Positions 4,819 through 63,863 of a DNA stretch of 64,000 nucleotides are shown piece by piece. Positions within the stretch are counted from its first letter, which is position 1, and each line of letters opens with the position of its first letter. Both the position numbers and the translations under genes were made by a program. The stretch comes from Hydrogenophaga pseudoflava (GTDB lineage Bacteria; Pseudomonadota; Gammaproteobacteria; Burkholderiales; Burkholderiaceae_C), in assembly GCF_031020795.1 (NCBI RefSeq), contig NZ_JAVHJP010000004.1:378073-442072 (forward strand), in the 5' to 3' direction. A model generated the notes under the pieces. The model saw nothing but the letters and a program-made list of their open reading frames with translations, was not told the DNA's origin and did no database searches.

Positions 4819-5244
4819 TCACGTCTTCGGCTGCGGCGCCACCACCGGAGGGCCATCGAATGGCTCCAGCGATGGATCAACGCAAGCCCAGCTGGGCGCA
4901 CTGGCCACCCAGATGTTGGTGGTGGGTTTGACGGCCGATGGCTCGTCCAAGGTGCCCACCCGAACCACCGTCAGGCCCGGGCGACCGCTGGAGTCGGAGA
5001 ACAACTGGGTACCGCAATTTGGGCAGAACCGGCGGGTCACCGTGTTGCCGCTGTCGGCGGTCTTTTCGTGCTGGCCCGGCGTTCCCGAGATCTTGATGGC
5101 GTCGCTGGGGAAGATGACGTTGACCGTTCCGTTGGACGCGATCTTCTGGCAGTCCCTGCACCAGCAGATCCTGGATGGGCCGGCATCGGCGGTGATCTCG
5201 TATCGAATCTCGCCACAGAGGCAACCTCCGGTGAATGACTTCAT
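4819..5244 (-). CDS. GFA family (CENP-V/GFA domain) zinc-binding protein
   Basis: A 141-residue protein of the glutathione-dependent formaldehyde-activating enzyme family. It shows GGCLCGEIRY, the CWCRDCQK cysteine cluster and the later FCPNCGTQL pair, the zinc ligands of the fold. The true role of most family members is not known. The ATG at 5244 follows a GGAGCTC ribosome site, which supports it over the ATG five codons upstream. It ends 28 bases before the DHFR-like gene. Its upstream edge is the border of a low-GC insert. Confidence 0.88.
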   Translation of the reverse strand: MKSFTGGCLCGEIRYEITADAGPSRICWCRDCQKIASNGTVNVIFPSDAIKISGTPGQHEKTADSGNTVTRRFCPNCGTQLFSDSSGRPGLTVVRVGTLDEPSAVKPTTNIWVASAPSWACVDPSLEPFDGPPVVAPQPKT

Positions 5245-5272
5245 GTGAGCTCCTTGCAAATCTCAAACCTAG

Positions 5273-5725
5273 TTAGTCCGCAATGGCATACGCCTGTGCG
5301 ACGTTTCGCTGTATTGCGAGTGTTTCTGCCCCGATGAGGAGGCTGCCCCACGGCTCACTGCGCCAGTCATCATGAAGGACCACGATCACCTGGAAGTCGG
5401 CGAAGTCGCCCGACAGCAACTGCTGAAGTTGCTGGAGCAGGGCTGGATGGAATGTTTTACGAAGGATGTAGATGCATCGTCTGCGATCATCATTCCAGTC
5501 CCAGTTTTGCATCTGAACCTTGGATGCGCCTTCCTCTGGTCCGACTTCTCGTTCAAGCAAGTCCTTGATGGCAACTGCGACCCTGAAGTTAAGTTCGTAC
5601 TCTGCCTCCGCTAGAGATCCCACTGGGGTGTTCTTGCTTGTCTGCATCTGGTCGCAGAAATCCCAGAATGCCTCATCATCTGTGAGGATCTTCACTGTTC
5701 TGAAGGCACGGAGGAACTGAAACAT
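5273..5725 (-). CDS. Unknown protein in low-GC insert
   Basis: A 150-residue protein I do not recognise. It is soluble, tryptophan-rich in the middle (QMQNWDWNDDRRRCIYILR) and starts FQFLRAFRTVKILTDDEAFWDF. GC content is clearly lower than in the flanking genes. The ATG at 5725 is preferred to that at 5824, since the longer version would begin in the attC-like site at 5761-5820. Its stop codon lies in a GACTAAC sequence at 5272-5278 that is one base off an attC core. It follows the DUF6602-like gene in the same direction and is probably part of the same acquired insert. Confidence 0.6.
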   Translation of the reverse strand: MFQFLRAFRTVKILTDDEAFWDFCDQMQTSKNTPVGSLAEAEYELNFRVAVAIKDLLEREVGPEEGASKVQMQNWDWNDDRRRCIYILRKTFHPALLQQLQQLLSGDFADFQVIVVLHDDWRSEPWGSLLIGAETLAIQRNVAQAYAIAD

Positions 5726-5760
5726 GGTTGCTTGCGACTTGTCTTTGCAAGAAGTCTGTC

Positions 5761-5820
5761 TTTTAACGGTGGAGGCCTGCAGCAACAGCTGTCTGTAGCG
5801 GCTGGGCCGATTGGTTAAAT
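5761..5820 (-). other. attC-like recombination site, 60 bp
   Basis: Read on the minus strand, the site begins with ATTTAAC (a perfect RYYYAAC core) and ends with GTTAAAA (GTTRRRY but for the last base). The interior is an imperfect palindrome, with GGCC and CTACAG/CAACAG arms pairing around a short centre. Its 60-bp length is typical of attC sites. Another RYYYAAC core (GTCTAAC) lies at 5885-5891 at the stop of the preceding gene, so the functional site could instead span 5761-5891. Confidence 0.5.
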
Positions 5821-5885
5821 GCAAATGGATTGGCGGAGGATCAATAAGCGAAGACTGAGAATGGTTTTGCTTTATGAATCACTAG

Positions 5886-6710
5886 TTAGACACAGTCTCC
5901 GAGTCTCAGAGTAACAACTCGTCCAAGCTTGGTAAGGATGCGCCTCATGATGGACTCTGAAATTCCAGCGACCGCTGGAAATGAGTACTCAAGTGCAAGC
6001 AGTAGACCAATTGGAGTGGCTTCGCCCCATGTCTCGAAATACCATCCGGTGTTTTTTCCGATAGGGGGCATTGCGCCGTACACGTTTAGTTCAGCATGTT
6101 TGATGTTTTTTAACAAGCCGACTCCGTTGATGATGATTGCGTCCAGTTGTTCTTCAAGTGGTATGGAGTTTTTTGCGTAATACGATGTGATTTCTCGCAA
6201 CATTTCCGTTGGCTCAAAGGCTTTGAGGGTAAAGACGTAAAACGGTATGCGCTGAGAGTGTTCGATTATGTGTGGCGGTGATGAGTATGCAAGCAATATA
6301 GGTGTTTGGCTACGCTTTACGTTTTTGACGCTCTGTCCTTGACGCAAGCTCCGATGTAGTTCATCTGTGCGGGCTAGATTTGGCTTAACCTCAATTGCTG
6401 CATCACACCCATCTGAGAAGATGAGTCGAAATTTTCCCTGCGAGTCCAAAATATTCGGGTGGGCCGGATTGAGAATTAGGCAATCAATCGAGTCGGATTG
6501 ATTGCCGTCGAGGTCGGTAATCTTGCCTTTCGATACTATGTGACTCTGTGGCAAAAATCTTTTGATAAAGCTTTGGACTGCGTGCTCGCGAAAATCCGCT
6601 ACTTCCTGTGGTGTGCCCTCTCCCTGCTCTGATGCTAATTTGAATTCTTCTGTAATAAGTCGACCCTCTGCCTTCAGAATTTCAATAAGCTTATTCATTT
6701 TTGACTTCAT
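5886..6710 (-). CDS. DUF6602-like protein with PD-(D/E)XK-like signature
   Basis: A 274-residue soluble protein whose central part resembles DUF6602 proteins. Visible features are FIKRFLPQSHIVSKGKI, then a D76 strand (SIDCLILNP) and E107-V108-K109 (DAAIEVKP). An aspartate followed by an ExK after about 30 residues is the usual signature of PD-(D/E)XK nuclease folds. It carries no obvious DNA-binding domain, so partner proteins would be needed. Low GC and the attC-like core at its stop codon indicate acquisition. Nuclease activity and a defence role are inference. A second ATG four codons in (6698) is possible. Confidence 0.7.
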   Translation of the reverse strand: MKSKMNKLIEILKAEGRLITEEFKLASEQGEGTPQEVADFREHAVQSFIKRFLPQSHIVSKGKITDLDGNQSDSIDCLILNPAHPNILDSQGKFRLIFSDGCDAAIEVKPNLARTDELHRSLRQGQSVKNVKRSQTPILLAYSSPPHIIEHSQRIPFYVFTLKAFEPTEMLREITSYYAKNSIPLEEQLDAIIINGVGLLKNIKHAELNVYGAMPPIGKNTGWYFETWGEATPIGLLLALEYSFPAVAGISESIMRRILTKLGRVVTLRLGDCV

Positions 6711-6817
6711 TCAGTGTTTTGAGGTTCGGATGGTATGCCGATACAGGTTGTGCCGGTAATGTGTCGCTGTGGAATATCAAGGAGGCAGGCTGCTCGGCTT
6801 TGAAGTTGTTTTGTCTT

Positions 6818-9550: not shown

Positions 9551-9844
9551 ATGAACGTCCGGAAACTCGCCGCACTGGCCCTGCTGGCGCTGGCCAGCGC
9601 GTCCGCTGTGCCGGCAGAGCCCGATGCCGCCGAGCGCAAGTTCATCCGCCAGGGCATGGGGGAAGGCGAGGTGGTGCTGAAGATCGGCCCACCGGACCAC
9701 GAGGCCGTGCACCGCGCCGTGCGGGGGCAGCCCGAAGAGAAGTCCTGGACCTACTTCCCCCATCCCCGCGACCCGCAGACCCTGACCGTCATCCGCTTCC
9801 ACGCGGGACGGGTCGCCGAGGTGGAACGCAAGATTTCGCGCTGA
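9551..9844 (+). CDS. Small exported BamE/SmpA-like protein
   Basis: A 97-residue protein with a signal peptide (LAALALLALASASAVPA). Its mature part, FIRQGMGEGEVVLKIGPPDHE and then a short beta hairpin ending TVIRFHAGRVAEVERKI, has the layout of BamE/OmlA-like or DUF2845 domains, in which an RxGMxxxEV-GxPD helix-turn is conserved. No lipobox is visible. It begins after a GGAG site at 9541. Its stop overlaps a possible upstream ATG of the next gene. Confidence 0.65.
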   Translation: MNVRKLAALALLALASASAVPAEPDAAERKFIRQGMGEGEVVLKIGPPDHEAVHRAVRGQPEEKSWTYFPHPRDPQTLTVIRFHAGRVAEVERKISR

Positions 9845-9864
9845 TGCGCGGTGAAAGGACCTTG

Positions 9865-10272
9865 ATGAAAGCAGCCCTTGCATGCGCCGCGCTGGCGATG
9901 CCGATGGTGGCGGTTGCGGCCGAACTGCGCGTGACGGTGAGCAACGGCCCCAGCGCCCCTGCCACGCTCTACCTCGCCGTGTTCGACGGTGCCGAGGCGT
10001 TTGCCAGCGGCCAGGCCGTGTGGTCGCAGAAGGTGGAGATGGTCGACGGTGCGGCGCAGTGGGTGTTCAGTGGTGTGCCGCCGGGGCGCTACGCGGTGAA
10101 GTCCTTCGCCGATGAAAACGGCAACGCGAAACTGGACACCAACCTGTTCGGTCTGCCCGTCGAACGCTACGGCTTCTCGAACAACGCGCGGGGCCGCATG
10201 GGGCCGCCGGGCTTCGAGGCGGCGGCGGTGGAGGTGGACGCTGACCGCAGCATCAGCGTCGAGCTGAAGTGA
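9865..10272 (+). CDS. DUF2141 family exported protein
   Basis: A 135-residue protein with a signal peptide (MKAALACAALAMPMVAVAA) and a DUF2141 domain: LYLAVFDGAEAF, then FSGVPPGRYAVKSFADENGNAKLDTNLFGLPVERYGFSNNAR split across the core. DUF2141 genes often sit beside carotenoid genes, as here, where a carotenoid oxygenase follows. The ATG at 9865 was chosen because of its AAAGGACC ribosome site. An ATG at 9844 overlapping the previous stop would add seven residues. Confidence 0.85.
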   Translation: MKAALACAALAMPMVAVAAELRVTVSNGPSAPATLYLAVFDGAEAFASGQAVWSQKVEMVDGAAQWVFSGVPPGRYAVKSFADENGNAKLDTNLFGLPVERYGFSNNARGRMGPPGFEAAAVEVDADRSISVELK

Positions 10273-10283
10273 CGAGGCCCCAC

Positions 10284-11843
10284 ATGCAACGCCGTGAGCT
10301 CCTGACCCGGGCGCTGACCCTCGGGGCTGTTCCCTGGCTGGCGCCGATGGTGTCGCGCGCCGCGGAACCGGAGAACTGGCAGGCACAGTTCGCCGCGTCG
10401 CGCGAACCCTGGGCCCCGGCCTTTGCCACACCGGCCGGCGACTACCCGCTGACCAAGGCCAGGGTGCGCGGGCGCTTTCCCGACGCAGTGACCGGCACGC
10501 TCTACCGCAACGGGCCGGCGGGCCACGATCTCGGCGGCGAGCGCTACCACCACTGGTTCGACGGCGACGGCATGGTGCAGCGCTTCGTGATCGAAGGCAC
10601 CGAGGTGCACCACCAGGGGCGCTACGTGGCGACCGCCAAGTGGGTGGCCGAGATGAAGGCCGGGCGGCGGCTCACCGAAGGCTTCGGCACCGTGTTCAGT
10701 GGGCGCGACGAAGTGAGCGCGCCCGACGACATGAACGTGGCCAACATCGGCGTGCTGCCGCTGGGCGGCGAGCTGCTGGCGCTGTGGGAGGGCGGTTCCG
10801 CGACCCGGCTCGACCTGCGCACGCTGCAGACGCGCGGACCCAAGACCTGGCGCGCCGATCTCGCGGGCGCGCCGTTCTCGGCCCACCCGCGCACCGAGCC
10901 CGACGGCACGGTCTGGAACTTCGGCGTCTATGCGCAGCGCAGCCTGCTGCTGCTCTACGAGATCGCGCCAGACGGCGCGCTGCGGCGGGCCGACGCCCTG
11001 GCGCTGGGCGAGACGCCACTGGTGCACGACTTCGTGGTCACGGAGAAACACCTGGTGTTCCTGCTGCCACCGCTGGTGTACGACGCACAGCGCCGGGCCG
11101 CGGGTGCGAGCGTGCTGGACGCGCACGTGTGGCGGCCCGGGCGCGGCCTGCGCGCACTGGTGATTGACAAGGCCGACTGGGCGCGGCGGCAGGAGTTTCG
11201 CCTGCCCCCGGGCTTCCTGTTCCACCTGGGCAATGCCTGGGAAGAAGAGACGGCGAGCGGCACCGTGATCCACCTGGACTTCGCGCGTTCGGACGACGCG
11301 CGTGGCCTGCTGGTGGACACGCGCGAGCTGATGCGCGGCCGCGCGGGCGGCACGCCGGGGCCGCGGCTGACGGTGGTGGAACTGCGGCTTCGCAGCGGCG
11401 AGGCCACGCAGACCGACCTGGGCATTGAGGCGGAGTTTCCGGTGATCGACCCGCGGCGCGTGGGCCGGCAGCACCGCCAGGTGTTCCACGCGACGGGCAC
11501 GCCCGGCGGGCTGCCGCTGTGGAACGCCATCGCGGCCACCGACGTGACGACCGGCGCTTCGCAGCGCTACAGCCACGGCCCTCAGACCATCGTGGAAGAA
11601 CACCTGTTCGTGCCCGACGGTTCAGGCCCGGGCTGGCTGATCGGCACCGTGCACGACCTGGCGCAGAAGAAGACCGTGCTGTCCTGCTTCGCAGCCGACG
11701 CCTTGAGAGATGGCCCGGTGGCGCAGGCCACGCTCCCGTATGCGCTGCCGCTGGGTCTGCACGGTGCGTTCGTGTCGGAGCCGCGGCTGGCCGATGGGGT
11801 GGTTTGTGATCGGACCGATTGCCAACGCGCCAGGGCCGCCTGA
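10284..11843 (+). CDS. Carotenoid oxygenase (RPE65) family protein with twin-arginine signal
   Basis: A 519-residue non-haem iron oxygenase-like protein. The N-terminus MQRRELLTRALTLGAVPWL is a twin-arginine-type signal, so it probably folds before export. Four family histidine ligands are visible in order: FSAHPRT, LVHDFVV, LFHLGNAWEE and GLHGAFV near the end. Family members cleave carotenoid or stilbene double bonds. After GLHGAFV the last 20 or so residues (DRTDCQRARAA) look unlike the family, and the gene's 3' end lies on top of the 3' end of the patatin gene on the other strand. The ATG at 10284 fits the signal peptide. Confidence 0.88.
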   Translation: MQRRELLTRALTLGAVPWLAPMVSRAAEPENWQAQFAASREPWAPAFATPAGDYPLTKARVRGRFPDAVTGTLYRNGPAGHDLGGERYHHWFDGDGMVQRFVIEGTEVHHQGRYVATAKWVAEMKAGRRLTEGFGTVFSGRDEVSAPDDMNVANIGVLPLGGELLALWEGGSATRLDLRTLQTRGPKTWRADLAGAPFSAHPRTEPDGTVWNFGVYAQRSLLLLYEIAPDGALRRADALALGETPLVHDFVVTEKHLVFLLPPLVYDAQRRAAGASVLDAHVWRPGRGLRALVIDKADWARRQEFRLPPGFLFHLGNAWEEETASGTVIHLDFARSDDARGLLVDTRELMRGRAGGTPGPRLTVVELRLRSGEATQTDLGIEAEFPVIDPRRVGRQHRQVFHATGTPGGLPLWNAIAATDVTTGASQRYSHGPQTIVEEHLFVPDGSGPGWLIGTVHDLAQKKTVLSCFAADALRDGPVAQATLPYALPLGLHGAFVSEPRLADGVVCDRTDCQRARAA

Positions 11844-54591: not shown

Positions 54592-55808
54592 ACAAGTCGA
54601 ACAACGGTGCGGCCAAAAAACGCCGCTGGCTCATCGGCGGACTGGCCGTGGCCGCCCTGGCCGCCATCCTCTGGGCCTCCTACCGCCCGCGTCCGCTGGA
54701 CGTGGAAACCGCCACCGTGGCCGAAGGCCGCTTCGAGCAGGTGATCGAGGAAGACGGCCAGCTGCGCCTGCAACAGCGCTACCTGGTCACCGCGCCCACC
54801 GCCGCGCAACTGCAGCGGCCCACGCTCAAGGTGGGCGACGCGGTGAAGGCCGGCGACGTGGTGGCCGTGCTCGCGCCCAATGCGCCCGGCATGATCGACG
54901 CGCGCACCCGCAACGTGCTGCAGCAGCGCGTGGGCAGCGCCGACGCCGCCGTGGCCGCCGCGCGCGCCAACGTGCAGCGCGCCCAGGCCGCGCTGGCCCA
55001 GGCCACGCTCGAAGCCGAACGCTCTGCGCAGCTCGCCAAGGACAACTTCATCGCCCCGTCCGCCCGCGACCAGAGCCGTCTGGCGCGCGAAGCCGCGGCC
55101 CAGGCCCTGAAAGCCGCGCAGGCCGAACAGGCCGCCGCCGGCCACGCCGCCAGCGAAGCCCGCGCCGCGCTGGGCCGTGCCGAGCCGAGCGGCGCCGTCC
55201 AAGGCATGTGGTCACTCAAGAGCCCGGTGAACGGCCGCGTGCTCAAGCTGCACAAAGACAGTAGCGAACCCGTGCAGGCCGGCGCGCCGTTGCTAGAGAT
55301 CGGTGACACCGGCGCCATGGAAGCCGTGATCGACGTGCTCTCCGGCGACGCGCCGCGCATCGCCGCGGGCGCCGCCGTGCAACTGGCCACCGGCCGCAAC
55401 CAGCCGCCGCTGGCCGGGCAGGTGGCCCGCGTGGACCCGGTCGCGTTCACCAAGACCTCGGCCCTGGGCATCGAGGAACAGCGCGTCAACGTGACGGTCG
55501 CGCTCCAGGCGCCGCCCGAAGAACTGCAGAAACTCGGCGACGGCTTCCGCGTCGACGCGCGCATTACCGTGTCAGCGCAAGACAGTGCGCTGCTCGTGCC
55601 CTCGGCCGCACTGGTCAGGCAAGGGGAGGGCTGGCAGGTGTTCGTGGTGGAGGCCGGCAAGGCCCGAGCGAGGGCGGTGAGCTTCAGCGACCGCAACGCA
55701 GACAGCGCCTGGGTGAAGGACGGGCTGAAGGCAGGGGAGACGGTGATTCTTTATCCGGGGAGCGGGATGAAGGAGGGGCAGCCGGTGCGGGTCAGGGTGG
55801 CTCGCTGA
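54588..55808 (+). CDS. HlyD-family periplasmic adaptor (membrane fusion protein)
   Basis: A 406-residue protein with one N-terminal membrane helix (WLIGGLAVAALAAILWAS), lipoyl-like halves (VGDAVKAGDVVAVLAP and VNGRVLKLHKDSSEPVQAG), a long alanine-rich coiled coil between them, and a beta-barrel end (AALVRQGEGWQVFVVEAGKA). It links the ABC exporter to an outer-membrane channel that is not in the window. It ends the operon; the low-GC island begins about 90 bases later. Confidence 0.93.
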   Translation: MNKSNNGAAKKRRWLIGGLAVAALAAILWASYRPRPLDVETATVAEGRFEQVIEEDGQLRLQQRYLVTAPTAAQLQRPTLKVGDAVKAGDVVAVLAPNAPGMIDARTRNVLQQRVGSADAAVAAARANVQRAQAALAQATLEAERSAQLAKDNFIAPSARDQSRLAREAAAQALKAAQAEQAAAGHAASEARAALGRAEPSGAVQGMWSLKSPVNGRVLKLHKDSSEPVQAGAPLLEIGDTGAMEAVIDVLSGDAPRIAAGAAVQLATGRNQPPLAGQVARVDPVAFTKTSALGIEEQRVNVTVALQAPPEELQKLGDGFRVDARITVSAQDSALLVPSAALVRQGEGWQVFVVEAGKARARAVSFSDRNADSAWVKDGLKAGETVILYPGSGMKEGQPVRVRVAR

Positions 55809-55895
55809 CAGCTTTCGACCCGAAGCAGCCTTCCGGAACACTGAAAGCCCAAAAACATCACCTGCAACCGAGGCTGCCGGGTTTCGCGAGTTACA

Positions 55896-55907
55896 TATAC
55901 CGGTATA
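55896..55907. other. Perfect 12-bp palindrome at the island edge
   Basis: TATACCGGTATA reads the same on both strands. It lies in the 224-bp gap between the adaptor gene and the first island gene, close to where the composition becomes AT-richer. It could be an operator or a trace of an insertion boundary. Confidence 0.4.
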
Positions 55908-55967
55908 ACTGTCAGGCGTTCACGCTCAAATGGTTGATCTGATTGCACTTTCGGAGGAATGACGTGA

Positions 55968-56028
55968 CCAGAATATCCCGCACCGTCCAGAATATCCCGC
56001 AGTTTCTGCGGGATACATTACGTTAGGC
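55968..56028. other. Direct repeats, hairpin and GTTRRRY core ahead of the first island gene
   Basis: CCAGAATATCCCGCA occurs at 55968-55982 and again at 55987-56001 (19-bp period). The second copy forms a ten-pair hairpin, TATCCCGCAG with CTGCGGGATA (55993-56015). The core GTTAGGC follows at 56022-56028, five bases before the start codon. Direct repeats plus one core recall an integron attI site; the hairpin recalls an attC arm. No matching RYYYAAC core was found upstream, so a complete attC is not shown. Confidence 0.45.
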
Positions 56029-56032
56029 TGCG

Positions 56033-56854
56033 ATGCAGAACGAACCGAAGATTCCAGATCCACCCGAACCAGAAGATGAGGTTTTTGGTGGAATAAACCT
56101 ACTCACGCGATCATTGCGTGACCTTGATGATCGAGGCTTAGTCCTCTCGTTAGCGGCATTCGCTGAAGAAGCCCTCGGCGAACTACTGAAGGCATTCATG
56201 ACGCCCTCAGAGGCGACGACACAACTTATCGAGGGTTTCAATGCTCCTCTGGGAGCATTTTCTTCCCGTATTAAGGCAGCTTACGCCATTGGCCTAATCA
56301 CCAAAGAGCAATTTCTCGATCTAGAGCGCCTGCGTAAAATTCGGAACGAATTTGCTCATAGCTGGAAGCCAGTTGATATTTCAAAGCAGCAGGTTGCGGC
56401 GCTGATCGACAGCATGGCCTTCAGTCGCATAGATGATCATTTCCCAGAAACCCCCATCGAGAAGATTCGCAGTTCCATGAGTTGTTTGTTGGTAGAGATT
56501 CGTTCATCGACCCATCAAATTCAAAAGAAGGGCCTCCAAGCGAGGCTGGTTGGAAATCATCTCATGCGTGGATTCTCTGGAGAATTTGACACTCAGATTC
56601 AAAACGCCCGTGAAGAGCTAACCAACATCTCCAAGAATTTGGACGGTGCTGAAGATAAGAAACGCAATTTCTATCTAACGCTTCTTCTCCGATTCAAGGA
56701 CAGATTGACTGTATTGGCTAGGCCAGAAAGTCCTGAGCAGAAAAAAGTGCTTAGCGATTTTCTTGAGGAATTTAGTAGTGTGCTGCGTCAAGTCACAGCC
56801 CAACAATCCACTCCAGAGGGACGCTACGCCGGCAAGCCGGCTTCGCGCCCCTGA
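56033..56854 (+). CDS. MtlR-like protein with RNxxxH motif (cassette gene 1)
   Basis: A 273-residue soluble, helical protein. Residues 20-110 resemble the MtlR (mannitol operon repressor) family: LLTRSLRDLDDRGLVLSLAAF, LIEGFNAPLGAFSSRIKAAY and LRKIRNEFAHSW. The last contains R104-N-E-F-A-H109, the Rx4H motif of HEPN RNase folds. A helical C-terminal half follows. The final 18 residues are read from the attC-like site itself, which suggests the original end differed. No mannitol genes are nearby, so a sugar role is unlikely. A toxin or defence role is inference from the motif and the neighbours. Confidence 0.75.
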   Translation: MQNEPKIPDPPEPEDEVFGGINLLTRSLRDLDDRGLVLSLAAFAEEALGELLKAFMTPSEATTQLIEGFNAPLGAFSSRIKAAYAIGLITKEQFLDLERLRKIRNEFAHSWKPVDISKQQVAALIDSMAFSRIDDHFPETPIEKIRSSMSCLLVEIRSSTHQIQKKGLQARLVGNHLMRGFSGEFDTQIQNAREELTNISKNLDGAEDKKRNFYLTLLLRFKDRLTVLARPESPEQKKVLSDFLEEFSSVLRQVTAQQSTPEGRYAGKPASRP

Positions 56855-56869
56855 GCTAGTACGTTAGAC
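56798..56869 (+). other. attC-like recombination site, 72 bp
   Basis: It begins with the perfect RYYYAAC core GCCCAAC (56798-56804) and ends with the perfect GTTRRRY core GTTAGAC (56863-56869). The interior folds back on itself: GCCGGC-AA-GCCGGC at the centre, continued by imperfect pairing of GGGACGC with GCGCCCC. Length and cores fit an attC. The end of the preceding gene lies inside it, and the next start codon follows 8 bases later. Confidence 0.65.
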
Positions 56870-56877
56870 CTCTCAAT

Positions 56878-57426
56878 ATGTTCGCTGACGCCGCCAAGAC
56901 ATTTCTTGAATTCCTGAAGCTCGCTCCACGCTATCTCATAGCGCTTGGTGTCATGGCTGCCTTTCTTCTCTTTGCCAACGAGGAGTTTCTCAAGTTCATC
57001 GGAGTATTTGAGCTTGCACAAAACAATCGCCCTATGCTGGGTCTTACCCTCGTTGTCACCGTCGCGCTTTTCTTGGTTTCCGTTATCGGCGACGGCATCG
57101 CTCTCGTAAAGCAATGGTGGTTCAGGAGGCGCCGCTATCGGCGTATCGAGGAGCGATTGCAGTGCCTGACCGAAGACGAAAAGCAAATTCTCCGGTACTA
57201 CCTCGCGGAGAACACTCGCGCAAACACGCTCCGCATCGACGATGGTGTCGTGCAAGGACTCAAAGCCAGCGGCATCATTCACTTGTCCGCTTCGATGGGC
57301 AACGCCCTCGAAGGGTTCGCACACAATATCAACGAGTTTGCGTGGGACTATCTCCACGTACACCCGCATTTGCTCGAAGGAACTACCAATACTTACCGCA
57401 CTGATAAACGGGAGTCGTATTGGTAG
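56878..57426 (+). CDS. SieB-like membrane protein (cassette gene 2)
   Basis: A 182-residue protein with two membrane helices (about 17-37, YLIALGVMAAFLLFA; and 51-75, LGLTLVVTVALFLVSVIG). A basic segment WWFRRRRYRRIEERLQ and a cytoplasmic domain with LTEDEKQILRYYL follow. The layout matches the SieB superinfection-exclusion family of phages, whose members sit in the inner membrane and stop infection by other phages. Similar genes occur in bacterial genomes and cassettes with unknown role. It has an attC-like site on each side. Confidence 0.7.
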   Translation: MFADAAKTFLEFLKLAPRYLIALGVMAAFLLFANEEFLKFIGVFELAQNNRPMLGLTLVVTVALFLVSVIGDGIALVKQWWFRRRRYRRIEERLQCLTEDEKQILRYYLAENTRANTLRIDDGVVQGLKASGIIHLSASMGNALEGFAHNINEFAWDYLHVHPHLLEGTTNTYRTDKRESYW

Positions 57427-57432
57427 CACGAG

Positions 57433-57501
57433 ACCCAACCCTGCAATCCAACGGCGCTGCGCGATAAACCCGCGCAGCGCCGGTGATTTTGAACGTTAGC
57501 C
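57433..57501 (+). other. attC-like recombination site, 69 bp
   Basis: It begins with the perfect RYYYAAC core ACCCAAC (57433-57439) and ends with GTTAGCC (57495-57501), one base off GTTRRRY. The centre is a perfect 12-pair stem, CGGCGCTGCGCG (57452-57463) with CGCGCAGCGCCG (57471-57482), and a seven-base loop. It starts 6 bases after the stop of gene 2; the start of gene 3 follows 10 bases after its end. Confidence 0.65.
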
Positions 57502-57511
57502 TCCAGAAATC

Positions 57512-58465
57512 ATGAATCTTGTTGATACGCTGCGAAAAAAGATCGACGTGCTGGAGGATGGCGATTACGTTCCTGGATTGAAGGCGGTGCTACTTCATAT
57601 TGAGACGGCCTTCCGACATCTCTCGCGTGGACAAGAGACCGACGACGAAACTGCCTTTACTGACGCAATCTATAGGACAAACCAAGCGTTTGAAGGCAGT
57701 GTCAAGGAAGCCTATCGAGTCTTGGCCGGCCAAGACCCTGCAAAGAAGCGTCCCTTCGACATCGAGAACTATCTTGAGCAGAACAACATCTTCCGCAGCA
57801 GAGTGCTTAGCCAACTGACTACGTATCGTACGGAGTGGCGCAACCCATCGGCCCATGACTACAAGCTGGATTTTGACGAGAGCGAGGCATTCCTTGCAAT
57901 AGTTTCGGTATCGGCGTTCGCATGTCTTCTCCTCGATCAGATTGCTGAACGTATCGCTTATACGAGGTCGCTGGCGGAGGCAGAAGCGCAGAAGGCGGTA
58001 CTCGAAGCGAGCCTCGCCCAAACTGTGAACGCCGACCTGCTGATCAGGCTCACAGATTTACTGAATCAGTTCTGTGCAATCCACTTGCCTTCTACATCGT
58101 CCTCCAGCAAAGCAACTGAGTCGCAAGTAATTGGCGCACTCCATGGCTTCTTGTCGTCGGCCGCTCCGGAGCTAGCGGTTGAGACCGAGGCCCGCTTAGA
58201 TGCGGACAAGCCGTTTCGAGCTGACTTGCTTGTATCGCGTGGTGGGGAAAAAGTCGTCATTGAGATCAAGCGGCGGCTTATGAGGCAAAACTATGCGAAT
58301 GCTGTCGCGCAGGTGGAGCACTACTTGCTCATTGGTGGTGTCAAGGACGGCATCCTGTTGTTCTTGCCCGATGCACCGAGCGATATGGAGAGAATCGACA
58401 CAACCATTGCCGGCGTAGATGGTCGTCTTGTCGTACTGTCGCCTGTGGGGTCTAAATTACGTTGA
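57512..58465 (+). CDS. HEPN-like plus PD-(D/E)XK-like fusion protein (cassette gene 3)
   Basis: A 317-residue protein of two parts. Residues 1-150 are helical and hold R110-NPSA-H115, the Rx4H motif of HEPN RNases, followed by YKLDFDESEAF. A helical linker (150-175) follows. Residues 205-317 carry a restriction-nuclease-like core: E224/E226, D238 in FRADLLVSRGG, E251-I-K253 in VVIEIKRRL, and a Q-x-E helix (QVEHYLL). Both signatures are intact. I do not know a named family for the full length. A role as an RNA- or DNA-degrading abortive-infection effector is inference. Confidence 0.7.
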   Translation: MNLVDTLRKKIDVLEDGDYVPGLKAVLLHIETAFRHLSRGQETDDETAFTDAIYRTNQAFEGSVKEAYRVLAGQDPAKKRPFDIENYLEQNNIFRSRVLSQLTTYRTEWRNPSAHDYKLDFDESEAFLAIVSVSAFACLLLDQIAERIAYTRSLAEAEAQKAVLEASLAQTVNADLLIRLTDLLNQFCAIHLPSTSSSSKATESQVIGALHGFLSSAAPELAVETEARLDADKPFRADLLVSRGGEKVVIEIKRRLMRQNYANAVAQVEHYLLIGGVKDGILLFLPDAPSDMERIDTTIAGVDGRLVVLSPVGSKLR

Positions 58466-58531
58466 GCGACTGTTTACCCGTTTGATCGAACGCCGCTCCT
58501 GGCCGAGAGCTGCCGACCAACGCAATTGCGG

Positions 58532-59011
58532 TCACCCACGCCAAGCCTTCTCAATCCCCGCCACATCAATCTTCCTCATCCCCATCATCGCGTCGAACGC
58601 CCGCTTGGCGGCTGCGCGGTCCGGGTCGTTGATGGCGGCGGTCAATACGCGCGGGGTGATCTGCCACGACAGGCCCCACTTGTCCTTGCACCAGCCGCAG
58701 GCGCTTTCCTGGCCGCCATTGCCGACGATGGCGTTCCACAGGCGGTCGGTTTCGGCCTGGTCGTCGGTGGCCACCTGGAACGAGAAGGCTTCGGTCTGCG
58801 GGAAGGCCGGGCCGCCATTGAGGCCGAGGCAGGGAATGCCCATGACGGTGAATTCGACGGTCAGCACATCGCCCTGCTGGCCGGAGGGGTAGTCGCCCGG
58901 CGCGCGCATGACCGCGCCTACGGCGCTGTCCGGAAATGTGGCCGCGTAGAAGCGCGCGGCTTCTTCCGCGGCGCCGTTGAACCAGAGGCAAATCGTGTTC
59001 TTGGCGGGCAT
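58532..59011 (-). CDS. PhnB-like VOC-family protein
   Basis: A 159-residue protein of the PhnB/3-demethylubiquinone-methyltransferase-like VOC group: ICLWFNGAAEEAARFYAATFPDS at the start, VEFTVMGIPCLGLNGGP, SFQVATDDQAETDRLWNAIV and WGLSWQITP. Activity is unknown for most members. It converges on the last island gene with 66 bases between and has normal high GC, so it belongs to the chromosome side of the boundary. Confidence 0.88.
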   Translation of the reverse strand: MPAKNTICLWFNGAAEEAARFYAATFPDSAVGAVMRAPGDYPSGQQGDVLTVEFTVMGIPCLGLNGGPAFPQTEAFSFQVATDDQAETDRLWNAIVGNGGQESACGWCKDKWGLSWQITPRVLTAAINDPDRAAAKRAFDAMMGMRKIDVAGIEKAWRG

Positions 59012-62864: not shown

Positions 62865-63863
62865 ATGACGACCACCACGTTCCCCCAGCCGCAGGACGCC
62901 GCCCAGGTGCCGCGTTTCGCCGGCCTGTCCACCTTCATGCGCCTGCCCATGGTCGAGCCCGACCGGCTGGACACGGTCGACATCGGCCTGATCGGCATCC
63001 CCTGGGACGCCGGCACCACCAACCGCGCCGGCGCCCGCCACGGCCCACGCGAGGTGCGCAACCAGTCGGCGCTGATGCGCAAGGTGCACCACGTCAGCCG
63101 CATCGCGCCGTACGACCTGGCGCGCGTGGCCGACCTGGGCGATGTGGCCCTGCCGCCCATGGACCTGATGCTGGGCCTGGACCTGATCGAAGCCTTCTAC
63201 CGCCGGGTGCACGCGGCCGGTGTGCGCCCGCTGTCGGTGGGCGGGGACCACCTGGTCACGCTGCCGGTGTTCCGCGGCATCGCCCGCCAGGGCGCGGTCG
63301 GCATGGTGCATTTCGACGCCCATTCAGACACCAACGACAGCTACTTCGGCGGCCAGCGCTACACCCACGGCACGCCGTTCCGCCGCGCGGTGGAAGAGGG
63401 CCTGCTGGACCCGACGCGCACGGTGCAGATCGGTGTGCGCGGCTCGGTCTACGACCCGGCCGACCTCGACTTCGCCAAGGCGGTGGGCATCCGCGTGGTG
63501 CAGATGGAAGAGGTGGCGGCCCGCAGCAACGAAGACCTGCTGGCCGAAGCGCGCAGCATTGTCGGCGTCGCGCCGACCTACATCAGCTTCGATGTCGACT
63601 GCCTGGACCCGTGTTACGCGCCCGGCACCGGCACGCCCGAGATCGGCGGCATGACGACCTTGCAGGCGCAGCACCTGGTGCGCGGCCTGCAGGGCCTGAA
63701 CCTGGTGGGCGCCGACGTGGTGGAGGTCAGCCCGCCCTTCGACGTGGGCGGCGTGACTTCGCTGGTGGGCGCGACCATGACCTTTGAACTGCTGTGCCTG
63801 CTGGCCGATGCGCACGCCCGGCTCGGCCGCCTGCCTGCAGCCAGCGTGGGGGCCGCCGCATGA
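62865..63863 (+). CDS. Ureohydrolase-family protein, second copy
   Basis: A 332-residue paralogue of the preceding protein with the same metal motifs: VGGDHLVTLP, VHFDAHSDTND and SFDVDCLDP, then GTGTPEIGGMTT. Both start with PRFAG, showing tandem duplication followed by divergence. The two may form a mixed oligomer or act on two related guanidino compounds. Its stop overlaps the start of the next gene (ATGA), so translation is coupled. Confidence 0.9.
   Translation: MTTTTFPQPQDAAQVPRFAGLSTFMRLPMVEPDRLDTVDIGLIGIPWDAGTTNRAGARHGPREVRNQSALMRKVHHVSRIAPYDLARVADLGDVALPPMDLMLGLDLIEAFYRRVHAAGVRPLSVGGDHLVTLPVFRGIARQGAVGMVHFDAHSDTNDSYFGGQRYTHGTPFRRAVEEGLLDPTRTVQIGVRGSVYDPADLDFAKAVGIRVVQMEEVAARSNEDLLAEARSIVGVAPTYISFDVDCLDPCYAPGTGTPEIGGMTTLQAQHLVRGLQGLNLVGADVVEVSPPFDVGGVTSLVGATMTFELLCLLADAHARLGRLPAASVGAAA

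Follow-up and report, generated by a model that had tools for sequence, protein, structure and literature searches.

Overall structure of the island

The window, a 64,000-nucleotide stretch of a Hydrogenophaga pseudoflava contig, carries three genes on the + strand (ORFs 56033-56854, 56878-57426, and 57512-58465), whose GC contents are 0.49, 0.53, and 0.53, respectively, against a background of ~0.69. These values agree with a preliminary description of three AT-rich genes in one direction on an integron-like island. The left limit drawn there, 56022, coincides with base 1 of the attI core; the attI-bearing left end (55813-56028) had been overlooked. The island contains the following features.

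55813..55874, + strand: left block of the platform, probably a remnant, in reverse orientation, of the flank 3' to a deleted intI
55875..55888, - strand: relic of the intI start, the reverse complement of ATGAAACCCGGCA; the start codon is changed here
55953..55957, + strand: Shine-Dalgarno-like GGAGG of the leader ORF, recognized from the sequence
55964..56026, + strand: leader ORF of 20 codons that spans attI, with its TAG stop at core positions 3-5
55971-55982 and 55990-56001, + strand: direct repeats GAATATCCCGCA, candidate integrase-binding sites
56007-56015, + strand: inverted TGCGGGATA, candidate integrase-binding site
56022..56028, + strand: attI core GTTAGGC, the left boundary of the cassettes
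56033..56854, + strand: cassette 1, MtlR-fold HEPN protein of 273 aa (Pfam, predicted fold)
56798..56869, + strand: attC of cassette 1 (model 43.4 bits, E 6.9e-11), overlapping the end of gene 1
56878..57426, + strand: cassette 2, SieB-family membrane protein of 182 aa (PF14163, E 8.4e-36)
57433..57501, + strand: attC of cassette 2 (model match 57433-57500, 27.4 bits, E 5.6e-6)
57512..58465, + strand: cassette 3, putative fusion of HEPN (RNPSAH) and PD-(D/E)XK (D238, E251, K253), 317 aa (alignment, predicted fold)
58449..58467, + strand: right junction, GTCTAAATTAC followed by GTTGAGC; cassette 3 has no attC here, and the stop codon lies within the junction

The attI platform

The 162 bp to the left of the cassettes (the platform) recur in 23 of 67 genomes of the genus, at 38 places. 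Of the 36 platform loci examined, which include two near-identical contigs from a single genome (L136 and L137) and a locus chosen for its intI (L162), 12 have intI or pieces of it directly upstream in divergent orientation. Where intI is present, the repeat is found in the interval that separates intI from the first gene downstream, with the core (G|TTAGGC) at its end, and attC sites lie downstream of many copies. Although the platform is multi-copy in several genomes, as an unrelated dispersed repeat of the REP or MITE type would be, its position adjoining intI and the attC sites behind it make that explanation extremely unlikely, and we discarded it.

On the basis of its homology to the intI-linked copies, the 162-bp stretch is designated an attI site. 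A GTT core stands at the place equivalent to 56022 in 30 of the 37 copies examined, including that of the window, and the DNA after the core differs among the 13 copies compared. The layout of the repeats between 55971 and 56015 was compared with DR1, DR2, and L of attI1 (PMC12901181), and by this analogy they are possible integrase-binding sites. Within the family, 141 genera were sampled, and the core part of attI was detected in 33 of them. Searches of 72,556 plasmid records and 50,697 phage records gave no match to the attI at E 0.01, and carriage by plasmids or phages was set aside.

Probable loss of the integrase

The genome is rated 100% complete, and no integron integrase exceeded the cut-off in it (best match 84 bits versus 265). 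Weak matches of this kind also occur in 14/14 control genomes, and those of the present genome are not next to attI; the intI gene that adjoins attI in a complete integron is absent here. An integrase over the cut-off is present in 15/67 genomes of the genus.

The left end of the platform appears to preserve a trace of the gene. ATGAAACCCGGCA corresponds to the first codons of intI in L138/L119, and TGCCGGGTTTCAT matches the intI start when reverse-complemented. Seven copies without an integrase have this left block in common, with z ≥ 3 for 14 of their 21 pairs, and the similarity ends abruptly (1/21 pairs for the next 58 bp and 0/21 for the segment after that). A resemblance of the block to the DNA that follows intI was seen by blastn for L129 versus L121 (E 0.042) and by eye for L118 and L124. 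From these comparisons we infer that the left end is the scar of an intI deletion. Integrase-less copies with similar left ends are located at unrelated genomic places, two of them in this genome.

Two histories were considered for these copies. In the first, to which we give about an even chance, every attI without an integrase goes back to an old integron from which intI disappeared independently, and nothing was dispersed, the like left ends reflecting a favoured deletion or the parental layout. Half-decayed integrases adjoin attI in five loci (L133, L144, L149, L150, and L153), and intI inactivation is frequent in Xanthomonas (PMC12444791). In the best tree, the seven copies whose left ends are alike do not group together, two changes being needed; a single clade (p-AU 0.32, not rejected) was therefore not retained. 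The abrupt end of the similarity shared by 14/21 pairs argues against independent decay, as do two properties of the tree. A branch (84/89, not starred) sets the ten copies of two left-end types apart on a side without any intI-linked copy, and one and the same genome contributes copies to different sub-groups.

In the second history, which we put forward tentatively as the less probable one, the integrase-less attI is a dispersing, non-autonomous form of integron. The part of intI from its first codons to its stop would have been lost in an ancestor that retained attI with a ribosome-loading leader. This form would then have reached seven or more genomic places across the genus (two here, from two sub-lineages), providing extra landing pads that were filled by the integrases of relatives with cassettes such as that of the HEPN-nuclease. 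Because the left block of the window reaches z ≥ 3 with only 3/6 other copies, we give less weight to dispersal and more to independent decay.

attC sites and cassette borders

A covariance model of attC was built from the loci of other genomes only and used to scan the 64-kb window, with reporting up to E 10. It returned exactly two matches, both between the three genes, which substantiates the cassette island of the preliminary description; the bottom strand of the cassette-1 site folds. An AT-rich patch at 5.0-6.8 kb was rejected as a second cassette array, as the model found no attC there. Because one attC lies behind gene 1 and another behind gene 2, genes 1-3 are separate cassettes.

The last cassette has no attC, none being detected by the model at its right end. 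Thus, two of the three cassettes carry the attC expected in a complete integron. In the gene-3 relatives L057, L062, and L064, an attC is present at the equivalent point, and the cassette-3 attC has probably been deleted. The same place in a close relative (G312) is occupied by other genes, so that no clean empty site was obtained. We propose that each gene was captured singly via attI x attC recombination by an integrase now absent from the genome, and that the array would have become frozen once intI and the last attC were gone.

A leader ORF in attI

The 20-codon frame across attI is retained in 24/30 examined copies, and the ATG of cassette 1 is located six bases past the leader stop. The substitutions in the leader comprise 24 silent and 86 non-silent changes, with an expected silent share of 0.29. 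Since they show no bias toward silent changes, the leader peptide is not conserved; we abandoned the idea of a selected peptide and describe only the frame and its length. Constraint at the DNA level alone could explain both the repeat and the frame.

No sigma-70-like promoter was found by consensus within 55780-58600, attI included. A transcript starting in or left of attI would run through the array. Ribosomes would then translate the 20-codon leader, halt at the TAG within the core, and restart at the ATG of cassette 1. ORF-11 of attI1 provides a precedent for leader translation and restart at the first cassette (PMC8876359).

The cassette-encoded proteins

Gene 1 passes the Pfam MtlR threshold (PF05068, 25.4 bits; cut-off 25.2) over residues 70-131 only and is below the cut-off of NCBIfam MltR (29.6 against 149). 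Its predicted model matches a solved MtlR structure (Foldseek, 6kcr_C, E 7e-4, TM-score by target 0.59), and the Rx4-6H motif, R104-N-E-F-A-H109, is at the end of helix 91-108. The MtlR-like protein with RNEFAH that had been proposed is thus borne out, with a HEPN-like fold. PADLOC gave a weak Cas10 match only (E 0.014). Relatives in viral contigs were found at nine loci by alignment and at none by single-sequence search. The protein keeps the RNase motif and could act either as a toxin with RNase activity or as a regulator that binds RNA.

Gene 2 matches Pfam SieB (PF14163) over its full length with 123.2 bits (cut-off 26) and has two hydrophobic segments, in accordance with the SieB-like two-helix membrane protein expected. 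PADLOC yielded no match, and no relatives were found in viral contigs. Gene 2 would most likely stop phage growth at the membrane in the manner of SieB proteins.

Gene 3 passed no Pfam or NCBIfam cut-off (PDDEXK_3, 18.3 versus 22). Its predicted fold has a pLDDT of 85.9 and a pTM of 0.85. The N-terminal half is all-helical, and the motif R110-N-P-S-A-H115 directly follows helix 96-108 in a low-confidence loop. In the C-terminal half, the predicted helix-strand-strand-strand-helix-strand order (H203-217, E222-228, E236-243, E246-253, H258-275, and E279-284) gives the alpha-beta-beta-beta-alpha-beta core with D...ExK of PD-(D/E)XK nucleases (D238, E251, and K253). Foldseek matched one half to McrC and restriction enzymes and the other to HepT and sacsin HEPN domains, with a best E of 0.012 and none passing 0.001. 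R110, H115, D238, and E251 are invariant in 13/13 aligned rows, and K253 is kept in 11/13 and replaced by Arg in 2/13. The RNPSAH region and the PD-(D/E)XK-like core noted beforehand are therefore present. The predicted structures show a HEPN-like fold for both gene 1 and gene 3 and, in the latter, also a nuclease-like one, the Foldseek matches of gene 3 being weak and its PDDEXK_3 score below cut-off.

Relatives of gene 3 were collected at 13 loci (Acidithiobacillus, Massilia, Pseudomonas, cyanobacteria, Burkholderia, and others), with 90% identity in Acidithiobacillus and 80% in a cyanobacterium. Model attC sites (E < 0.001) flank 4/13 of them (L057, L062, and L064 at either end, L012 at the left end), and by these sequence comparisons gene 3 is a travelling cassette. 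Both viral searches returned the same one contig. PADLOC gave only weak matches (LmuA, E 6e-4; Cas4, E 0.01).

The search for defence neighbours covered 10 proteins picked by hand at 4/13 gene-3 loci. In L059, the relative follows a cyclase, HORMA, TRIP13, and an exonuclease (a CBASS gene set), and in L012 it lies between PtuA (Septu-type) and GajA/GajB (Gabija-type). The one protein looked up in L058 had no defence match, and that in L065 matched a candidate system only (PDC-S33, E 3e-9). The suspected link to defence is thus supported by two relatives that adjoin known defence genes, and gene 3 is likely defensive. It would most likely act alone as an infection-activated nuclease, with the HEPN half cutting RNA (R110/H115) and the PD-(D/E)XK half cutting DNA (D238/E251/K253), resulting in abortive infection or destruction of phage DNA. 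Alternatively, the HEPN half could be a non-catalytic RNA binder and the nuclease could serve repair or regulation. Certain HEPN proteins are regarded as RNA binders that lack activity (PMC3710099), and K253 is Arg in two rows, but the invariance of R110 and H115, the wide mobility of gene 3, and the CBASS, Septu, and Gabija neighbours make this alternative unlikely.

Relationship among the three genes

The preliminary description had treated the three genes as a set, possibly a membrane sensor with two effectors, and had suggested a neighbourhood survey to see whether they travel together. They are adjacent, on the same strand, and of kinds known in defence, and one transcript could serve all three. 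Two attC sites between them nevertheless argue against a SieB sensor and two nuclease effectors selected as a unit. Outside this genome, no second member of the trio was found at 13 gene-3, 14 gene-1, and 2 gene-2 loci (flanks of 1.5-10 kb), and the trio shares no other genome among 300 order-level genomes. PADLOC gave no strong model match to a known defence system among the three genes. Because of the lack of co-occurrence at these loci and in these genomes, we dropped the three-gene system, which we consider very unlikely.

We conclude that this island represents a chromosomal integron that lacks its integrase. In our preferred reading, which we consider probable, it consists of a solo attI platform (55813-56028) that lost intI and three singly captured cassettes, of which gene 3 would encode a stand-alone nuclease.

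Comparison with known systems

If this reading is true, an integron can survive or multiply as a site of capture and expression after losing its integrase, and such sites would go unlabelled in searches that target only intI or only attC. The leader frame would suggest that the translational coupling at attI known from class 1 is a property of family-wide chromosomal integrons. In gene 3, a cassette would carry, as a single gene, a protein whose two halves both resemble nucleases and which could readily be tested for defence. A literature search, partly by exact phrase, found no paper on a leader ORF in this attI or on a dispersed integrase-less attI.

With two attC sites and no intI, the island falls within the CALIN class (cassette arrays lacking an integron integrase; two or more attC, no intI). 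In PMC12444791, CALINs are defined by attC clusters only; here, in contrast, an attI with a leader ORF still heads the array. The intI-inactivated integrons of Xanthomonas and the intI loss in Treponema likewise show arrays that outlive the integrase (PMC12444791 and PMC3607928). In Xanthomonas, intI is mostly at one ancestral place (PMC12444791), whereas here integrase-less platforms are found at several unrelated places, two in this genome.

The SieB superinfection-exclusion proteins (PF14163) resemble gene 2 in full length and differ in that gene 2, whose function here is predicted, is cassette-borne. The HEPN superfamily (PMC3710099) covers MtlR, Ymh, and an integron-cassette HEPN (PDB 3jrt), and includes EC042_2821, a HEPN fused to an REase. 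Genes 1 and 3 share its Rx4-6H at a helix end, and both HEPN in cassettes and the HEPN-REase fusion were thus already known. Gene 3 differs in that its predicted model consists of HEPN followed by PD-(D/E)XK only, with no room for a wHTH or zinc ribbon.

The closest parallel to the leader is attI1 with ORF-11 (PMC8876359), which is also a short ORF with its own SD that crosses attI, stops at core positions 3-5, and is followed by the start of the first cassette a few bases beyond. The present leader has 20 codons instead of 11 and a different sequence, and its attI spans a bacterial family and persists in integrase-less copies.

Three independent genes in the island

The island holds three AT-rich genes in one direction, as the preliminary description stated; the stretch has about 50% GC, in a chromosome region near 69% GC.

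56033-56854, + strand, gene 1: MtlR-fold HEPN protein (RNEFAH)
56878-57426, + strand, gene 2: SieB-family membrane protein
57512-58465, + strand, gene 3: HEPN (RNPSAH) and PD-(D/E)XK fusion

Gene 1 just exceeds the Pfam MtlR cut-off and matches PHROG 22031, which has unknown function (E 9e-19). Its MtlR-like nature is borne out by the solved MtlR structure 6kcr, which was matched by both the predicted model (pLDDT 77.6; E 7e-4) and the sequence profile (E 3.5e-5). Arg104, Asn105, and His109 are kept in all 10 aligned rows of the family (nine viral-collection contigs and the window). According to an excerpt of PMC3710099, MtlR belongs to the HEPN superfamily, and the RNase motif is kept in some members and absent in a large fraction. 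Gene 2 is clearly a SieB family member, as proposed, with few relatives (four plasmid records and one order-level genome besides the window's own).

Gene 3 reached the cut-off of no family profile searched, and its sequence profile gave nothing good against solved structures (best E 0.69). The AlphaFold2 prediction, based on a 13-row alignment, shows two domains and is confident overall; the stretch around the HEPN histidine (residues 113-118) has low confidence. The best Foldseek matches are the PD-(D/E)XK enzymes McrC, OkrAI, Can2, and Hjc and the HEPN proteins HepT (of MntA-HepT) and sacsin, none at E <= 0.001. The two-domain model and these weak matches to both kinds agree with the HEPN and nuclease folds suggested earlier. 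Arg110, His115, Asp238, and Glu251 are invariant in 13/13 rows of the alignment, and Lys253 is present in 11/13.

The intergenic regions are attC-like, with a right core GTTRRRY, a left core RYYYAAC, and a foldable bottom strand. An attC covariance model was built from 12 sites, taken from nine loci in other genomes; the window was excluded to avoid circularity. In the whole 64-kb window, this model found two attC only, at 56798-56869 (E 6.9e-11) and 57433-57500 (E 5.6e-6), which upholds the proposed integron-like cassette island. No attC was found by the model in the window for the third cassette, which carries gene 3. At the place where gene 3 of the window stops early (GTCTAAATTAC|GTTGAGC), an attC is present in the relatives from Acidithiobacillus (L057), Dechloromonas (L062), and Acidovorax (L064); the attC of this cassette was therefore most likely deleted. 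Cassettes with a truncated attC are a known unusual type, as noted in part of PMC12901181. In the Acidithiobacillus array (L057), which includes the 90% relative of gene 3, an integrase-like ORF is shortened and attC was matched eight times at E < 0.001. A second AT-rich patch of the window (5000-6800; three minus-strand ORFs) contains no attC by the same model. An ARAGORN tRNA-Asp call at 63200-63291 lies within a long ORF and is probably a false hit.

The idea that the three genes form one set was not supported. Among 300 order-level genomes, gene 3 occurs in the window's genome only, gene 1 in three others (weak partial matches), and gene 2 in one other; outside the window's genome, no two of them share a genome. 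A second member was found at none of the fetched relatives' loci, a comparison that leaves out two gene-1 and three gene-2 plasmid records; a gene-2 match in L064 had an E of 0.64. We conclude that the cassette array is real and belongs to an integron without integrase, and that its three genes are independent.

Gene 3 as a candidate defence cassette

Relatives of gene 3 were found at 13 loci outside the window's genome (11 genome contigs, one viral-collection contig, and one plasmid), with identities of 90% in Acidithiobacillus, 80% in the cyanobacterium Nodosilinea, and down to 43%. Two of them lie beside defence genes. In Pseudomonas frederiksbergensis (L059), the relative comes after a CBASS set (cyclase, HORMA, TRIP13, and exonuclease), and on a Janthinobacterium plasmid (L012) it is flanked by Septu PtuA and by Gabija GajA with a shortened GajB. 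The GajB-like helicase (L012:8087-8656) has 189 amino acids versus a 471-position profile and adjoins an IS3 element. The look-up covered 10 hand-picked proteins from 4 of the 13 loci, with no match for L058 and one candidate-system match for L065; the proximity is an association and carries no statistical weight. Among the three genes, the HEPN-nuclease fusion stands out as the best candidate for a new defence cassette with a single gene.

The general idea, stated in the preliminary description, that defence genes occur on integron cassettes is already known from work that PMC12444791 cites and lists: 20% of function-unknown Vibrio cholerae integron cassettes gave anti-phage activity, and papers of 2025 treat integrons as defence libraries.

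An attI platform at many places in the genus

The more unusual part of the island is its attI platform. A left-flank search revealed that the DNA bordering the island on its left recurs across the genus as a dispersed repeat that ends at the core (56022-56028). This 162-bp unit occurs at 38 places in 23 of 67 genus genomes (E <= 0.01). Among the 37 regions fetched, two (L161 and L162) were chosen for their integrase gene (intI); the unit was located in 36 by a lenient criterion, and 28 of these align over at least 60 bases. The DNA after the unit differs among 13 copies compared. At 12/36 loci, an intact or broken intI is found immediately upstream in divergent orientation; two of these loci, L136 and L137, are near-identical contigs from a single genome. 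The unit opens with the start codons of intI. Because a site beside intI is where attI belongs, we identify the unit by its position as attI.

An integrase above the family cut-off is present in 15/67 genus genomes and absent from the window's genome. The latter has a second attI without intI (G000:C18:171329-171485; L131, about 9609-10545); this attI carries a 20-codon leader frame, and small genes and two attC lie behind it. One lone attC is on contig C16. The genome-wide attC list covers 150 of 3,954 candidates and lacks the window's second attC. The site at 55809-58530, between an efflux-adaptor gene and a 3-dmu-9_3-mt gene, varies: in the close relative G312 it is occupied by other genes and has no attI match. 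Those genes resemble a RES/Xre toxin-antitoxin pair.

Origin of the copies without integrase

Among 18 fetched copies that align over 60 or more bases and lack a detectable intI, the model found attC within about 2.5 kb in 11; seven of these 11 loci supplied sites to the model, and L131, L139, L140, and L148 did not. Of the remainder, L126, L145, and L152 have less than 1 kb of downstream DNA, and L129, L142, L143, and L155 gave no attC despite a longer downstream stretch.

A further 58-bp block on the left shows similarity among seven copies (window, L126-L129, L131, and L140), which then diverge: pairs at z >= 3 number 14/21, 1/21, and 0/21 in successive leftward blocks. The window's left block reaches this level with L126, L127, and L129 and falls below it with L128 (2.5), L131 (1.7), and L140 (0.7); the sole pair in the next block is the window and L127 (4.3). 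No homology was found among their upstream surroundings, compared up to about 1.3 kb further left (about 0.2 kb for L128). Because the left block, reversed, resembles the sequence behind intI of complete integrons (L129 versus L121 at a blastn E of 0.042; others by eye), these copies look like integrons from which intI was excised, from about codon 5 to the stop.

In a tree of 28 attI copies, from which the duplicate L137 and loci with a poor match were omitted, the ten copies with two left-end types all fall on the same side of a branch (84/89, not starred), with no intI-linked copy among them. The seven copies with similar left ends need two changes on the tree, and a single clade is not rejected (p-AU 0.32). 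The two attI of the window's genome fall into different sub-groups. Dispersal after one deletion would fit; repeated decay is at least as likely.

Leader frame across attI

From 37 attI copies including the window, 7 without a GTT core were set aside; 24 of the other 30 keep a 20-codon frame ending at the core, nested in five cases inside a frame with a start called further upstream. The core supplies TAG in 15, TAA or TGA in 5, and no stop at that point in 4. In the intI-linked L162, the frame length is unchanged and the sequence is much altered. Between L162 and the window, the hairpin that precedes the core retains its base pairing with changed letters (CCCGCA..TGCGGG against AGAGCA..TGCTCT, by eye), a hint that its structure, or paired sites for the integrase, may be under selection. 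The 68-bp core part was matched in 49/299 genomes and 33/141 genera of the family, in a wider draw with at most three candidates scored per genome.

Silent changes are not favoured among the leader substitutions (24/110 versus 0.29 expected), and therefore the peptide, judged by these substitutions, is not the conserved entity. Because the DNA of the repeat is itself so well conserved, the frame does not count as independent evidence. The leader resembles ORF-11 of attI1, described in similar terms in part of PMC8876359: ORF-11 loads ribosomes for the first cassette, the core supplies the stop, and amino-acid changes matter little. By analogy, the leader frame here may load ribosomes for the first cassette as ORF-11 does.
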